Positions 22,982 through 63,452 of a stretch of DNA of 64,000 nt are shown piece by piece; positions within the stretch are counted from its first letter, which is position 1; each line of letters starts with the position of its first letter. The position numbers and the translations under genes were made by a program. The notes beneath the pieces were generated by a model, which saw nothing but the letters and a program-made list of their open reading frames with translations, did not search any database and was not told the DNA's origin. The stretch comes from Albula goreensis (lineage: Eukaryota; Chordata; Actinopteri; Albuliformes; Albulidae), in contig CM040746.1 in the NCBI GenBank assembly GCA_022829145.1, forward strand, positions 31,762,212-31,826,211, written 5' to 3'.

Positions 22982-23308
<327 letters not shown>

Positions 23309-40250: not shown

Positions 40251-40399
40251 ATTTCACTAGAAACATTCTCAGACAATGGAAGGAATAAAATTGAAATGCT
40301 TTTATAAGTGGTGCGGTGTAGTGCTTGTACACTGGTTTTGGGCTTGGAGTCCTAAGGGGGAGAGGAGTGCAGATATTCTTGTAAAAGAAGAGGACCCCC
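40251..40399 (-). repeat. Ngaro split repeat B2 (149 bp)
   Basis: Outer 3' terminal copy of B1. Its outer edge is ATTT, abutting flanking genomic ATATATGCAG. Confidence 0.95.
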
Positions 40400-40448
40400 C
40401 TATAGGAAAACACATAATTAGGAAAGGAGGTGATGGGGAGGAGGTGGG

Positions 40449-40577
40449 ATGCCAGAAATGCAAAGCACGATGGGAGCTAGGTACGTGGTGTTTATATACT
40501 TGGGTGGAGACCGGAATTGATTATAGGGCGTTGTCTGAGAATGATTCTCCCGAACTTTGTTTTAACAAACTCCATTT
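40449..40577 (-). repeat. Ngaro split repeat A2 (129 bp)
   Basis: Second copy of A1. It overlaps the start of B1 by the four bases ATTT (40574-40577) and is separated from B2 by 49 unique bases (40400-40448). Confidence 0.95.
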
Positions 40578-40722
40578 CACTAGAAACATTCTCAGACAAT
40601 GGAAGGAATAAAATTGAAATGCTTTTATAAGTGGTGCGGTGTAGTGCTTGTACACTGGTTTTGGGCTTGGAGTCCTAAGGGGGAGAGGAGTGCAGATATT
40701 CTTGTAAAAGAAGAGGACCCCC
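40574..40722 (-). repeat. Ngaro split repeat B1 (149 bp)
   Basis: Identical over 149 bases to B2 (40251-40399). It begins ATTTCACTAG on the plus strand and ends in a C run. It lies directly downstream of the tyrosine recombinase ORF, whose stop codon is at 40776-40778. Confidence 0.95.
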
Positions 40723-40775
40723 AAAGACTGCCAGCCAGGAAGATGTAGATGGTGGGACTGCAAAGAAAGAAAACG

Positions 40776-41752
40776 TTATTGGACCAGTGCGACGTGAGCG
40801 GAATGTAAGTCTGGAATGTTGAGTCGGATGTAGGATTGGAAGGCATCGGAGGACCAGCGACCCAGGCGTTTAATTAGGTGATCTGGTAGTCCGTTTTTTG
40901 CTGCGGTGGTGGCTGCTCCGATTCTGAAAGAGTGTGAGGAAAAAACGTTAGACGGAAAACCACATGCACACAGGACTGCTTTTAAATGTTTTGGAACCAA
41001 TGACGAGTTACGATTTTGCCAGTTTTGTCAATGAATAATGGAGAGGATGGAGAACTAGGGAGGTTGACGCGGTATTGGAGGTAGGAAGATAATATTTCAT
41101 ATGGGCTAACGGGTGAGTCGAGTTTGAAATAATGGATAAAACATCCCTTGCCGGATTGATCGGTTTTACTGAACTTGAGAAAATATTGGATGATCTCCTG
41201 GCTGATTACAGTGAGATCGGATAAACAGGGATGTATACTGGGGTTGAAGTAGGTGGATGTAGAGGTGAATTCGGAGCAGCGTAAGAATCCGAAGAATGCA
41301 AGCGTGAATAAGGTTGCTAGGGTGATGTCTGTATGTGGGTCGGAGTAGCCGGATCGGAGGAAATCTATGCAGTGAGTGAGTATGGGAAGCGTTATGGGAT
41401 TTCTGGAAGTTTGTACGCCTGGGTCTAGCCTTTGGAACCCTTTCAAGAGGAGTTGGATTTGAGGGTTGTGTATGTGAGGGCAATTGGAACCGAAAAGGAG
41501 TTTGTGGAAAAATTGTATACCACTTAGGTATACTCTGATGGTGGAGGTTTTGATTCGGAGATGAGAGTGGGCGAAAGTTATGAAAGAGGAGTATGTGACT
41601 AAGCTGAATGACGGGAATTGGAGGTTGTGATGGACATGGAATGACTTAAAGCAGTTCCAGGCGGTGTAGTAAGACTGAAGTGTGCGTGGTGATGAGGCTT
41701 GAAGGATTGTGTCGAGGGAGCGCAGGTGCAGGTGATGAAGGGGGTGATTCAC
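40776..41752 (-). pseudogene. Ngaro tyrosine recombinase (frameshifted)
   Basis: Encodes the recombinase that would insert the circular DNA copy. The upstream frame (41752-40982, 256 codons) has the N-terminal helical DNA-binding part and the first catalytic Arg in FFGFLRCSEF. The downstream frame (41000-40776) has HSFRIGAATTAA (His-x-x-Arg box), LGRWSS and the nucleophilic Tyr in FQSYIR. The catalytic set R...HxxR...W...Y is thus complete, but it is split by a one-base frame change at the four-T run 40989-40992 (plus strand). It directly follows the RT-RNase H ORF, whose stop overlaps the first codons here (41749-41752). Confidence 0.88.
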
Positions 41753-43345
41753 GGGAACGTTAGCTGTGAATAGGGAGGAACTGGAACCGGGTTGGTGTCT
41801 GCTTCTGGAGCCAAGGAGTAGAATTTCTGAAATCGGAAGCGAGAAAGACAGTCAGCAATTTCATTGTAATGACCCGGAACGTGAGCGGCGCGGATGATGA
41901 ACTGATTACGAACTGATGCCCAGGTGAGACGACGGAGGAGTGGCATGATGGCGTTCGAGCGTGAGCGACCTTTATTGATTATGTGGACGGTGGCTAAATT
42001 ATCCGAATGGATTAAGACGGTCTTTTGTTTCCATTCGGCACCCCAAATGACCGCGGCGGCGACCACCGGGTACAATTCGAACAGTGCGGATGAAGATTCG
42101 GAAGGGGGCAGAAAGGAGAACTCGACCGGCCATGGGGCTGCGAACCATCGGCCCTGGTAATAAGCACCGAAGCCCACGGAGGGGGCAGCGTCGGTGAATA
42201 ATTGCAGGTCAGTGGGAGACGAAACGTGGTCGTCATAGAAAAAAGAGACCCCGTTCCATTCTTTTAAAAAGAGGTGCCACAGCCGGAGTTCTTTTAGGCA
42301 ATAGGAGTCCAGCTCTACAACGTCTAGTAAAGACGGGACGGACGAGGCTAGGGAGAGCAAGTAAATATAAATGATCTACCGTGGGGAAGGACACGCATTG
42401 CAAATTTAAATGACCGAGAAGCGATAAAAGGTCTCTTTTTGTGCAGCGGGGGTTAGACAAGTGTCCGTGCAATGCTTCGCTAATCCGGTCTATCTTTTCT
42501 TTAGGGAGAGGCCCGGAGTTCTTTTTGTGTCGAGAATAATGCCCAAAAACTCTAGAGAAGTGGAAGGACCGAATGTTTTCCCTGCTGCCAGCGGGACACC
42601 GAGGTCGTGGAAGACCTGGAGCATGGAAGCAAGGCCGGACGCCGGGGGGGACGAGGGTGGCGTAATCGTCAAAAAATCGTCCAGCAGGTGGAGGACGAAC
42701 GGAACCTTGCGGCGATTTAAAAGAATCCAGCATATAGCCTCGGACATCGAAAATCTTAGGACTGCTCTTGCACCCGAAAGCTAGACGCACGGAAAAATAA
42801 AACCGTCGCGCCACCTGGCGCCGAAAAGGTGCCAGTAAAGGGGGTCGATTGGCATGATTTTAAAAGCAGAAGTCACGTCCGCTTTGGCTAACCACGAACC
42901 CCTGCCGGCGAGTTTAATGAGCCTGATTGCGTCGTCTACAGTGGAATAGTACAAGGAAAAATCTTCGGAGGGAATCAAACTATTGACACTCGGGATTACG
43001 GAGTCATGAGGGGCGGATAGGTCGAGTATTAGCCTTTTCTTGCCGGAGTATTTTCTAGTAGCAACGCCCAACGGATTGACTCGGAATACTGGAAAGGGGG
43101 GGTTGTCGAAAGGGCCAATCATGAAACCCGACTGGACTTCTTTGGCTAGAAGAGAATCCACCACGGCTGGCTCGGCTTCCGCCGATTTAAGGTTGGGACA
43201 AATAACCGACTGGGAGGGGAGCGAGACCAGGCCGGGGGAGAAACCGATCGAGAGACCCTGGAGCAAATACGATACGAAAGAGGCGTCCGGGTGACCGCAG
43301 AGGTCGGACCGAAGCCTGGAAATGTTAACTGGGGTGGAAAGGTAG
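41749..43345 (-). pseudogene. Ngaro reverse transcriptase-RNase H (frameshifted)
   Basis: Reverse transcriptase followed by RNase H. The RT N-terminal part is open from about 43345 (NISRLRSDLCGHPD...). SWLAKADVTSAFKIMPIDP supplies the first catalytic Asp. RLAFGCKSSPKIFD follows in a second frame, and the LLDDFLTI catalytic motif (equivalent of YxDD) lies in the first frame again at about 42690. The RNase H domain (42360-41749) has LFTDAAPSVGFGAYY, the Glu-containing ELYPVVAA, VLIHSDNLATVHIINKG and AAHVPGHYNEIADCLSR. Frame changes occur near 42810, 42745, 42500 and 42370. The last returns to the original frame, so only the RT middle is scrambled. Confidence 0.88.
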
Positions 43346-43505
43346 CGTAATAGTCAAGCCTGATCGAGAGGGAGGGGACGGCGTTTAACAGGGCACACAA
43401 GAAACGAATGAGCGCCTGCGCAGAAGCAGCAAATATGGAGTAGCCTGCAGACATTGCGAACGCATTGGCTGTAATTAAAATTGTTACAAACCTCCCTTCC
43501 CCTAC

Positions 43506-45397
43506 TCAAAACGACCGGCCGGCCGCGAACATCAGCCTTCTTGGTAGAGGTAGGAGACCCGAGTCGGGCACATGATTAATAGGTCCGGGCGGCTGCGAAC
43601 CTGCCGGAGCGGGTCCAGAGGACGAAGCCACCATGGAACACAACCTAGTGGAATGTTCGGTTGAATTGCAAACGTTACAGGCTGACGGCCTCAATCCGAT
43701 AAAAACCCGTGAATACACGTCAGAGTCAAGGACCCCCCAGTATGCGCAAATATTAAACTGGGATAGCCTGGCAGCGCATTTAGCCGAGAATAGCCGGTGA
43801 TAGGTAAAAAAGTGGGACCCGCCGAAACGAACTGCTAAGTCAGCTACGATAGCTAAGTAATCGTTCAGCTCCTTTCGGCGGTGGGGGAAGGCCGAACATA
43901 TGATGTCGGTGTAGCGGCCAAATGCCAGGCTAAACTCCGGAAAACGTACCTTGGTGGAAGACGGGCCGGATGTTTTGAGGGACACAGTAACGCCATCACA
44001 GTCCAACAACCTATGCTCCAAAGGGGAGGAAGGAGACAGCAGGGAAACTAAATTAACATCCGCACCTTGTAGGACCTGGGAACGAATGGCAGCAGACACG
44101 GGAATCGGGTCGAACACGGGGGCGGACGGAGGAGGGGGGGCGGAAGTCGCCGTAGCCAGGCTATAGGCCTGGGCGCGGGGAACAGGTTGGGGGGCCAGGA
44201 TGGTGGAGAGGGGTGGGTGTGAGGGTCCGAAGATGCTGTTGAGCAGTGAGGGTGTTGCAGGGGAAGAGACGAAGGAAGCTGAGCTGGGAGGGATGAGGGA
44301 GGGGGAGCTGTGCCGGATCCCTAGGAGCGTGCAATGGCGGCGCCACCGCCGGCGACACGGGTGCCGGGGGAAGCCCGCCGACTCCGGAGGGGACGCCGGG
44401 AGCGGGGAGGGAGAGATACGGTGCCGAGTCCCTAGGAGCGTGCAGTGGAAGGACAGGCGGCGCGTCGGGCGCCGGCTGGGGCCAACCGACTCCGGAGGGG
44501 ACTCGGGCAGAGGAGGGGGGAAGGGGAGCTGTGCCGGATCCCTAGGAGCGTGCAATGGCGGCGCTACCGCCAACGACACGGGTGCCGGGGAAGCCCGCCG
44601 ACTCCGGAGGGGACGCCGGGAGCAGGGAGGGAGAGATACGGTGCCGAGTCCCTAGGAGCGTGCAGTGGAAGGACAGGCGGCGCGGCGGGCACCGGCTGGG
44701 GCCAACCGACTCCGGGGGGGACTCGGGCAGAGGGAGGGGGGAGCACGAGGGCAGCCGGAGCGCTGAGAGGGCGCCGAGATGGGGCTGCTCCGTCGCTAGC
44801 AGCAAGGAGGCAGGTGAAGGAGACGGGGCCGGACTGAGCAGCCGCGGGGAAGGAGTCGGCGACAGGCGCAGCCGAGGACAGCCCGAGGGTCCAGCGGAGG
44901 TCGCCAGGAGGTAGGGTGACGTCATCGACTCCGCGCTGAGCTTGAGCAGGGACTGTCAGGACCCCAGGTCGCAGAGAGTCTGAGTACAGGCGAAACAGCT
45001 CTGCTTTCCTTAAGTTCGCAGGAAAATAGACTCCGCGGTCGGTGAGAGCCTTTCGAAGGAGGGCCACGGTCCATCGGGGCGGCCGGGGAGGAGAAGCAGT
45101 GCGCTCGCCGACGTCGATGGGGGCAGCAGGAGACCGGGAGCGAGCCTGAGCCGAAGGGGCAGCGCCGCGGCGAGGACGCCGTTCCGGGACTCTTGAGGCG
45201 GTAGAAGAAGGAGATGCCGACCGCCGGGAAACAGGTCGGGATCTCAGCCGGCGCAGGGTCCGGCGACGGATCGGGGGACGACCTCGGGCAGGGGCCGCCG
45301 TGGCCGGGTCTCGGGCGTCTCGGGGAGGAGAAGCCGAGGAGCCGGAATCAGGGACGGGGGAGAAGTCGTCATCGGAAGCGTGAAGCAGCAATTCCAT
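43506..45397 (-). pseudogene. Ngaro gag-like ORF (frameshifted)
   Basis: Nucleocapsid/structural ORF of the element. It starts MELLLHASDDDFSPVPDSGS at 45397. Residues about 30-105 are Arg/Pro/Ser-rich, and a SAP-like motif (TVALLRKALTDRG..LRKAELFRLY) lies at about 110-138. A Pro-rich section follows, built on a tandem DNA repeat (44302-44740). The C-terminal half is a conserved-looking helical region (FSLAFGRYTDIICSAF...) with a CCHC knuckle, CNVCNSTEHSTRLC (C-x2-C-x4-H-x4-C). The first frame stops at 44564 and the second is open 44579-43506. The change coincides with a G run at 44587-44590 (plus strand) that is one base shorter than in the other repeat copy. Confidence 0.75.
44302..44740. 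repeat. Two-copy tandem repeat of about 221 bp inside Ngaro gag
   Basis: GGGGAGCTGTGCCGGATCCC occurs at 44302 and 44523, and the following sequence repeats with a few substitutions and one-base differences in G runs. It is GC-rich and encodes Pro/Arg-rich peptides on the minus strand. The period is not divisible by three, so the two copies are read in different frames. Confidence 0.85.
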
Positions 45398-45459
45398 GGC
45401 GCTGGAAGCGATCCGGAATTCAGCCAGTGCAGGAGTCGGGCAGAGACAGGAAACTGAAT

Positions 45460-45588
45460 ATGCCAGAAATGCAAAGCACGATGGGAGCTAGGTACGTGGT
45501 GTTTATATACTTGGGTGGAGACCGGAATTGATTATAGGGCGTTGTCTGAGAATGATTCTCCCGAACTTTGTTTTAACAAACTCCATTT
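45460..45588 (-). repeat. Ngaro split repeat A1 (129 bp)
   Basis: Identical over 129 bases to A2 (40449-40577). By eye no mismatch was found. It is the 5' end of the element and ends outward in ...CTCCATTT on the plus strand. It is expected to contain the element promoter. Confidence 0.95.
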
Positions 45589-61526: not shown

Positions 61527-62953
61527 GTAAGTATATTAAGCCTACTACACTGTGGAAGAGAGTGTCAGGTTAGCACAATGGTACAAATCTAATAAAGTGT
61601 TTCTTCTAACTCTGTTTCATCAGGTCCTTGTTCTGTTTTTTTATAAATATTCCACACCACCACCTCCCCCATTGACTCCCATGCAGTTTTTCAGGGACGT
61701 TCCCACACTCCTCCTTTTAAAATCCTCCACTTACCATATGCATTTGCCATGGATTGTTGAAAAACCCTATGTCCCACTTCCATTTTGGGGAAAACCTTTC
61801 ATCTTGCAGTCTTGCTTCTACCTAAGAGAGTCATGATTGGGTAATGGGGTTTCAAACTGCTGAAACAAGGTGGAGGTACAGTCTGTATCAGCGACTCATT
61901 TGAATCAATCTTTATGGTTTATAGTTAAGCACAAAACATTTTTATTGGTTCAGAGAAGTCATTGATTTATCAATGGTTGTATCTCCACTCATAATGGTAT
62001 TCATGAAACCTCAGTAAAAGGGCGATGTTAAGTACCTTGTACTATGTGGATCTGCAGTGTTTTGTCTATCACCGCTTTTAATTTATTTTGTTCTCCATTG
62101 CTCTACACTGCCCCACATACTTTCAATCATATTCTACATGTAGCAATAAAATATTCAAAGAACATTTGAATATTAGCTAATAGAATGGGTCATTGATTTT
62201 TACATGTAAAATCCCTGATCTGTGCCATCTGGCTCGTAGCTAGCTTTAATGAGGCAGCCTTTGGTCTAGTGGCTAAGGTACATGACTGGTACCCCTGAGG
62301 TTGGTGTTTCAAGCCTCGGTCTTGCCACAGCAAAAGAACACCATTGCTTAACCCCACATTGCCCTTGGCCCTTGGTTAGCTTAATCCAGGCATGCTATGA
62401 CTATAATGTAATGTGAGGTGAACACTTGGGAAACTTCACTGATTATTTCTTTTTAAAATGACATTTATAGATTTTTATTTATATATAACTTCACCGGCAA
62501 ATTGACAGACATTCTAGCTAATCATTTGACCACTCAGTCTTTATAGGAGTTGAGTTACCCATTTGTAGCTCCTTCCATCTTGCAGTTTGTTCAAGTATCA
62601 GTTTAATTACTAAATGGCTGTGAGAAATGTGGCTCAGATTCTAGTCTCAATGTATTTACCCCAGCAAGATCTAAGTTTTTCTGCAGTGATGACATCAAAA
62701 AGAAACAGCAAAGCATTATAAGCACATTACTTTGTAAACAATTGAATTAATATGTTGAATTGTATGCATGAAACATGTGCCAAACCAGTGGCTCATACAA
62801 AACTGATTTCTAAGTGCTTGGAATGTAAAACCAAACACATTCTCAGAATTGTATCATCTAATGCAATTTCCGTTCATGCCTTTTAAATGGTAAAGGGGAT
62901 TAAATTGATAATCTGTCATGTCTGTAACCCCCATCCCCACCTCCTCCCCTCAG
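61527..62953 (+). other. hdx intron before the homeodomain exon
   Basis: About 1.4 kb, AT-rich. It contains a second, internally deleted SINE (62251-62415). No exon was recognised. Confidence 0.6.
62251..62415 (+). mobile_element. tRNA-derived SINE, internally deleted copy
   Basis: GAGGCAGCCTTTGGTCTAGT and ACATGACTGGTACCCCTGAG match the SINE at 57269 closely. The central CTGTTGGGCCCTTGAGCAAG segment and most of the CGCTTTGG tail are missing. Same orientation and family. Confidence 0.8.
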
Positions 62954-63100
62954 ATGAATCTGCGCTCTGTCTTCACCGCCGAGCAGCAGCAAATCCTGGA
63001 GCGTTACTACGAAAATGGGATGACCAATCAGAGCAAGAGCTGCTTCCAGATGATCCTTCAGTGTGCCCAGGAGACCAAGCTCGACTTCAGCGTGGTCAGG
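62954..63100 (+). CDS. hdx: HDX homeodomain exon (start codon of the known HDX protein)
   Basis: 49 codons beginning MNLRSVFTAEQQQILERYYE and ending KLDFSVVR, closely matching the N-terminus of vertebrate HDX, a nuclear protein with two highly divergent homeodomains. It carries helices 1 and 2 and the start of helix 3 of the first homeodomain. The acceptor TCCCCTCAG directly abuts the ATG, so all 5'UTR must come from upstream exons. The donor is AGG|GTAGCT at 63101. Phase 0 on both sides. Confidence 0.95.
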
Positions 63101-63452
63101 GTAGCTATTGAGATGTGCACATTACAGGGCTGGGGTCATAGTTCATTGAGCTCCTCTATGAAGCTCCTCTATAAACAGGTACCCATCTATTTATGATATT
63201 TTTTGTCAGGATGTAGAACCAAAGTGAACAACAATGGGATTGGGAGCAAGAAAGAAGGGAGAGGGTCATTTATACACCACTGATTAGAATAAATTATATA
63301 ATTGCCATATATAGCTAGGCATACATTCCAGAAGGGATGATAATAATAATATTAATGTTAATAATAATAATAACAGTTTTTAAGTAGTTACAACGTTATA
63401 ACGTATTTCATATGTGGAGCTTATCAGATGCTTCTCATCTCCTTCTCTGCAG
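63101..63452 (+). other. hdx intron between homeodomain exons
   Basis: 352 bp with GT...AG borders. It contains an (ATA)n trinucleotide tract at 63336-63378. Confidence 0.85.

Follow-up and report, generated by a model that had tools for sequence, protein, structure and literature searches.

An apparently recent Ngaro-like retrotransposon insertion in Albula goreensis, very probably joined to its target at one fixed bond

A 64,000-nucleotide stretch of the Albula goreensis genome (assembly GCA_022829145.1, contig CM040746.1, positions 31,762,212 to 31,826,211 of the forward strand; hereafter the window, position 1 being its first letter) carried at 40251–45588 what is very probably a Ngaro-like tyrosine-recombinase retrotransposon that inserted recently and that joins its targets at one fixed bond. 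Comparison of its repeats confirmed the observation behind the original prediction, namely that the tetranucleotide ATTT is found at all three repeat junctions of this element, and comparison with other copies in the genome partly supported its interpretation: in place of ATTT as the crossover core, a fixed-bond rule was adopted under which the outermost bases come from the target.

The window element displayed the Ngaro-type split direct repeats A1–ORFs (open reading frames)–B1–A2–B2, with the minus strand as the coding strand and the coding-strand order A1, ORFs, B1, A2, spacer, and B2. On the minus strand, B2 occupied 40251–40399, the 49-bp spacer 40400–40448, A2 (where the A side of the recombination site is present as its internal copy) 40449–40577, B1 40574–40722, and A1 45460–45588. 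A1 and A2 were identical at 129/129 positions and B1 and B2 at 149/149 by direct comparison, and inspection of the flanks placed the end of repeat identity exactly at these bases, so that the predicted repeat boundaries were correct to the base. ATTT was verified at the start of B2, at the end of A1, and as the 4-base overlap of A2 and B1 (40574–40577, no strand assigned), the last of which probably represented a preserved circle junction with the bond between 40575 and 40576. Judged by the edge rule of the family (see below), AT at 40251–40252 (bond between 40252 and 40253) and TT at 45587–45588 (bond between 45586 and 45587) would be target DNA, and the element proper would span 40253–45586. 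Because A1/A2 and B1/B2 showed no difference over 278 compared positions, the insertion looks recent. A random blunt join was computed to share at least four bases at 2.2–2.4% of window positions, and thus the window copy alone was weak evidence. The 49-bp spacer, predicted as a variation on an adjacent layout, was indeed present between A2 and B2, but it was not peculiar to the window copy, being matched in 30/30 loci of the family.

The family of the window copy (family 1) was sampled by searching the A2–B2 region in the 932-Mb genome (best 40 of 847 candidates scored), together with an edge pattern (77 places), duplicates being removed. The four core bases on the window plus strand are denoted x1 to x4 (ATTT in the window copy), and the bond (^) lies between x2 and x3. 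Edges were left uncalled if the B match started after base 6 or the A match stopped before base 122, and two of the 40 outer A edges, which did not begin with AT, were excluded from edge pairing; the 38 paired copies (both edges called) comprised 17 longer copies and 21 solo B–spacer–A copies. The internal A2/B1 junction was ATTT in 27/28 cases, which supported the predicted split-repeat element with a circle junction preserved at A2/B1, and the loss of this overlap, named beforehand as an observation that would count against the prediction, was not seen among these copies. Another such observation, different bases at the outer edges, was made: outer B edges had the form NN^TTCA, with TT at x3x4 in 51/51 and ATTT in only 12, and outer A edges had the form AT^NN, with AT at x1x2 in 38/40 and ATTT in only 20. 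Among the paired copies, ATTT was present at both edges in 10, at one edge in 10, and at neither in 18, and one copy (L002) had the edges AC^AA. Since ATTT was constant inside the copies and the outer edges varied, ATTT is best read as the circle's own junction, the crossover as AT^TT, and the outermost bases as those of the target.

The bases of circle and target were placed one-sidedly at both edges. Wherever the target x4 was not T, the paired copy kept the circle T on its B edge (16/16); wherever the target x2 was not T, the paired copy kept the circle T on its A edge (23/23); in all five copies whose target x3 was not T, the B edge had the T of the circle; and the circle base C at x5 was found at only one of 38 A edges. 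A 50:50 placement would have a probability of 1.5e-5 for x4 at B edges and 1.2e-7 for x2 at A edges. The bond was thereby fixed from both sides, and the placement at x4 and x2, together with that at 29/29 A edges of a second family (see below), corresponded to the footprint that strand-biased tyrosine recombination is reported to leave in bacteria.

Insertion without target site duplication was observed at the paralogous empty sites of two other family copies. The flanks of the solo copy L026 lay within a repeat, and its insertion point was uninterrupted in 21 paralogs (L043 plus at least 20 more, the latter coming from the best 40 of 263 candidates, of which 20 were retrieved). Across these paralogs the empty site had A at x1 in 19, G at x2 in 21, T at x3 in 20, and A at x4 in 20, reading AGTA in 17/21 and ATTT in 0/21, and the filled site had the left edge AG^TTCACTAG and the right edge CTCCAT^TA. 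Target bases thus remained on either side of the bond, with neither duplication nor loss, in a target lacking ATTT. A circle-derived x3, suggested by the first two paralogs, was refuted for L026 by 20/21 paralogs. The second empty site (L011/L054 versus L044) was likewise contiguous, with one paralog only. The expectation that empty sites carry ATTT therefore failed on L026; for the window copy itself, an empty site with ATTT is still probable under the family rule.

A genome search with the N-terminal recombinase frame piece (40985–41851) gave at least 140 matches with 33–100% identity (135 of 268 candidates; 10 divergent loci read), and two related families were distinguished, with the circle junctions CAAACAACAA^TTCAGTAG in family 2 and AACTCCAT^TTCAGTAG in family 3. 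Their outer B edges were NN^TTCA in 10/10 loci, seven found as repeat boundaries and three only through a pattern already containing TTCA. Of the A repeats of family 2 (best 40 of 443 candidates), 10 lay at exact internal junctions and one (L140) at an internal variant; the remaining 29 formed outer A edges, all of which ended at AA, the circle core of this family being AA^TT. The bases after AA were TA in nine, TT in eight, GT in five, AT in three, AA in three, and GA in one, x4 being A or T in 29/29. Because the outer A edges of family 2 followed AA^, the fixed-bond rule held where the circle core was AATT, a core that also spoke against ATTT as a sequence the target must share.

The targets of family 1 were biased relative to the flank background. 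To the left of the bond, x-6 to x-4 were A-rich (28, 31, and 24 of 51), x0 was C in 18/51, and x1 was A in 32/51; to the right, x3 was T in 33/38, x4 was A or T in 38/38, and x5 was A in 27/38. The resulting preferred target, AAAnnnCAN^TWA, resembled the A side of the circle, and the circle A sides of families 1, 2, and 3 all had AAA, C, and A at the target-motif positions; the simplest reading would be that one recombinase half-site is used in both circle and target. A target forming a palindrome about the crossover point was also considered and rejected, its symmetry scores not being distinctive.

An inverted repeat surrounded the junction, with an A-side arm at 40531–40548 and a B-side arm at 40582–40599 (17/18 match; no strand assigned), the arms lying 31–34 bases (A side) and 11–13 bases (B side) from the bond except in the decayed copy L070. 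Folded as single-stranded DNA, the junction was stabler than all 200 shuffles on both strands (z -4.5 and -5.3). Among 20 distinct junction sequences, 19 retained 11–13 of 13 pairs and that of L070 retained six. Paired arm changes between families were found at pairs 6, 9, 11, and 13 and, in one sequence, at pair 12; the arm search had sought likeness to the fixed outer bases, and thus pairs 1–5, 7, and 8 were biased towards pairing and the others were not. Covariation within family 1 was considered and rejected, the arms being too conserved to vary appreciably. The paired changes are compatible with a folded strand as well as with a single protein-binding site present twice in inverted orientation.

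The coding content of the window copy lay entirely on the minus strand. A putative tyrosine recombinase was represented by two pieces in different frames: 40779–41027 was assigned to its C-terminal part (PF00589, E 0.0048; the score of 17.1 bits lay under the curated cut-off, 27.1), and 40985–41851, which had only weak SAM-like Pfam matches (E 0.11 and 0.14), was taken as its N-terminal part. A putative reverse transcriptase/RNase H region, consisting of several interrupted frame pieces with motifs recognised by eye, spanned 41752–43353, and ORF1, gag-like by position, spanned 43506–45487 in two overlapping frames, the first of which (44567–45487) contained an HeH/LEM domain (PF12949, E 6.2e-7 by Pfam) that possibly makes this part DNA-binding. 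A GC-rich tandem array with a 110/220-base period was located inside ORF1 at 44288–44742, and the two ORF1 frame pieces overlapped within it. A methyltransferase domain, whose absence sets Ngaro-like elements apart from DIRS and PAT elements, did not turn up in the Pfam scans, which missed the reverse transcriptase too; viral contig searches revealed no relative, and searches of the PDB nothing relevant. Frames were broken in ORF1, the reverse transcriptase region, and the recombinase of the window copy, and some relatives carried a longer, unbroken recombinase frame; the breaks may have arisen before insertion (the copy being mobilised by proteins of other copies) or after insertion, or they may be assembly errors. 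The element sat between an open frame at 22982–23308 (minus strand), possibly a CNKSR-type SAM domain exon judging from its translation, and one at 62912–63193 (plus strand), which we likewise take from its translation to resemble an HDX-like homeobox exon.

Besides complete copies, solo B–spacer–A copies were present, together with three further forms: (i) an outer B running directly into the internal region in L071, L072, L075, L076, L078, and L082; (ii) a tandem with an extra A–B junction in L003/L032 (L032 reverse complement 1229–1499), where A was joined to B via ATTT; and (iii) an A repeat joined to B via ATTT between internal regions in L067 (279–1127). The A–B junctions in L067 and L032 would represent a junction of circle-like or tandem type that became fixed in the genome. 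The solo copies and all three further forms can be put down to unequal recombination between repeats, recombinase action being another possible origin. Eight paired copies of only 2.88–3.04 kb with the same ends (C18:23725757, C23:2533984, C6:1260135, C2:30497819, C7:35032960, C15:34799911, C18:540669, and C3:28398045) apparently formed a shortened subfamily.

The edges point to an insertion in which the circle sequence is broken at the single bond AT^TT and joined to a target of which ATTT is not required, leaving at the left edge target bases up to the bond followed by TTCA and at the right edge CTCCAT followed by target bases. The element's own recombinase would act on circular complementary DNA (cDNA), recognising the half-site AAAnnnCAN^T in the target as well as in the circle; the inverted repeat, with its covarying arms, would belong to the site of recombinase binding or of folding, and the circle junction would be regenerated in each cycle from the internal A2/B1 copy.

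Several points weigh against this account. It draws on comparison of genome sequences, and its empty sites are those of copies other than the window copy. The recombinase assignment depends on a sub-threshold Pfam match, the reverse transcriptase/RNase H frame pieces went unmatched in Pfam at E up to 10, and, if its frame breaks predate insertion, the window copy would have been unable to provide its own proteins. The pattern that contributed 14 of the 51 B edges required TTCA, so that these edges could not reveal its loss, the other 37 being free of this requirement; the edges also had exceptions, namely two of the 40 outer A edges (a diverged C18 fragment and L079) and one of the 28 internal junctions. 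Finally, a left AT was accompanied by a right TT in 10/10 copies versus 10/28 for other left edges (Fisher p 0.0005), and this co-occurrence beyond expectation implies that a full ATTT match is favoured or helpful, though not needed; a preference for full ATTT targets accounts for part of the signal, so that the link between edges is only partly explained.

The same co-occurrence is what favours the classical DIRS-type model, in which the short junction of the circle recombines with an identical genomic word and the target must carry ATTT: the window copy fits it, ATTT at both edges of 10/38 paired copies exceeded independence, and an identical 3-bp sequence is given for DIRS1-like elements in the available part of PMC3266345. 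With ATTT at neither edge of 18/38 paired copies, with its absence from all 21 empty-site paralogs, and with L002 joined at AC^AA, this model is nevertheless quite improbable, and shared ATTT was refuted as a requirement and survives as a preference. Recombinase-free insertion of linear cDNA through end joining, which would agree with the absent target duplication, is scarcely credible given exact ends at 51/51 B edges and 38/40 A edges, two tested sites that had lost no target bases, a preserved internal junction, and the likeness of the target motif to the junction of the element itself.

It is tentatively proposed, by analogy with integron cassettes and strand-biased bacterial elements, that Ngaro-type elements, and perhaps all elements of the DIRS order, integrate by single-strand exchange at a fixed bond of a foldable circle junction, probably with a single-stranded circular cDNA as substrate and with host replication finishing the join; such an exchange would explain the non-matching targets, the one-sided base placement, and the inverted repeat with paired changes kept across three families. 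Tyrosine recombination that exchanges two strands over no more than a single overlapping base (x3, which is mostly T in the circle and the target alike) is likewise possible rather than probable: it agrees with T at x3 in 33/38 family 1 targets and is not separable from single-strand exchange by genome sequence, but 12/29 family 2 targets differed from the circle at x3 and yet were joined there. Tyrosine recombinases are generally known to use 6–8 bp. A spacer of 6 bp is also described for bacterial strand-biased elements in the part of PMC10214605 available, which again argues against so short an overlap. If two strands were exchanged over a longer overlap and all mismatches in it were repaired in one direction, an identical one-sided placement of circle and target bases would result, but fully biased repair would be needed at both junctions in the face of the 50:50 probabilities given above, which makes this reading rather unlikely.

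Among known systems, the Ngaro-like elements of Xenopus (DIRS-53_XT) and Cafeteria (types 1–4), as described in the excerpts of PMC9210276 and PMC8547959, have A1–ORFs–B1A2B2 split direct repeats in common with the window element, and solo AB repeats are reported there for the Cafeteria elements; the constant 49-bp A2/B2 spacer is a feature of the present family, and those excerpts mention, for Ngaro-like elements, no fixed bond of crossover and no outer bases derived from the target. In bacterial strand-biased circularizing integrative elements, the circle spacer is found preferentially on one side and that of the target on the other, which the available part of PMC10214605 ties to one-strand exchange; the one-sided base placement and the imperfect inverted repeats at the circle joint are as in the present family, but these are DNA elements with a multi-protein system, a 6-bp spacer, and no reverse transcription. 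Integron attC recombination, in which one strand is exchanged and replication is involved (PMC2727003, in part), likewise has a single exchange point beside a foldable inverted repeat, but the geometry differs, and in the present family folding and strandedness are putative.

DIRS1-like elements offer a further comparison. Their 3-bp circular junction is said, in the part of PMC3266345 available, to undergo recombination with the same sequence in the genome, no target duplication being produced, and a short circular junction kept inside the element and the absence of target duplication are shared with the present family; by contrast, their terminal repeats are inverted, whereas those of the window element are direct and split, and DIRS1-type inverted terminal repeats with an internal complementary region were not found in it, only 18–29 nt of inverted similarity beside the junction. 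In Table 3 of the same source, the start or end differed from the 3-bp junction in 8/26 elements, and all eight fitted a fixed bond after the first base (one start differing at base 1, seven ends at base 2 or 3), this re-reading being post hoc and small, with 18/26 elements uninformative. The mechanism of DIRS-1 replication and integration is itself described as proposed and not fully proven (PMC5633606, in part), and circular DIRS-1 cDNA is reported there from a laboratory strain of Dictyostelium. The fixed-bond rule, which may be known to specialists, would refine the published identical-3-mer model: it would correct the view that an identical 3–4 bp word is required and give exact element boundaries, since terminal bases otherwise assigned to the element would be target DNA, and the many-copy footprint of one bond, a pre-insertion site, and a target motif makes the insertion model testable.

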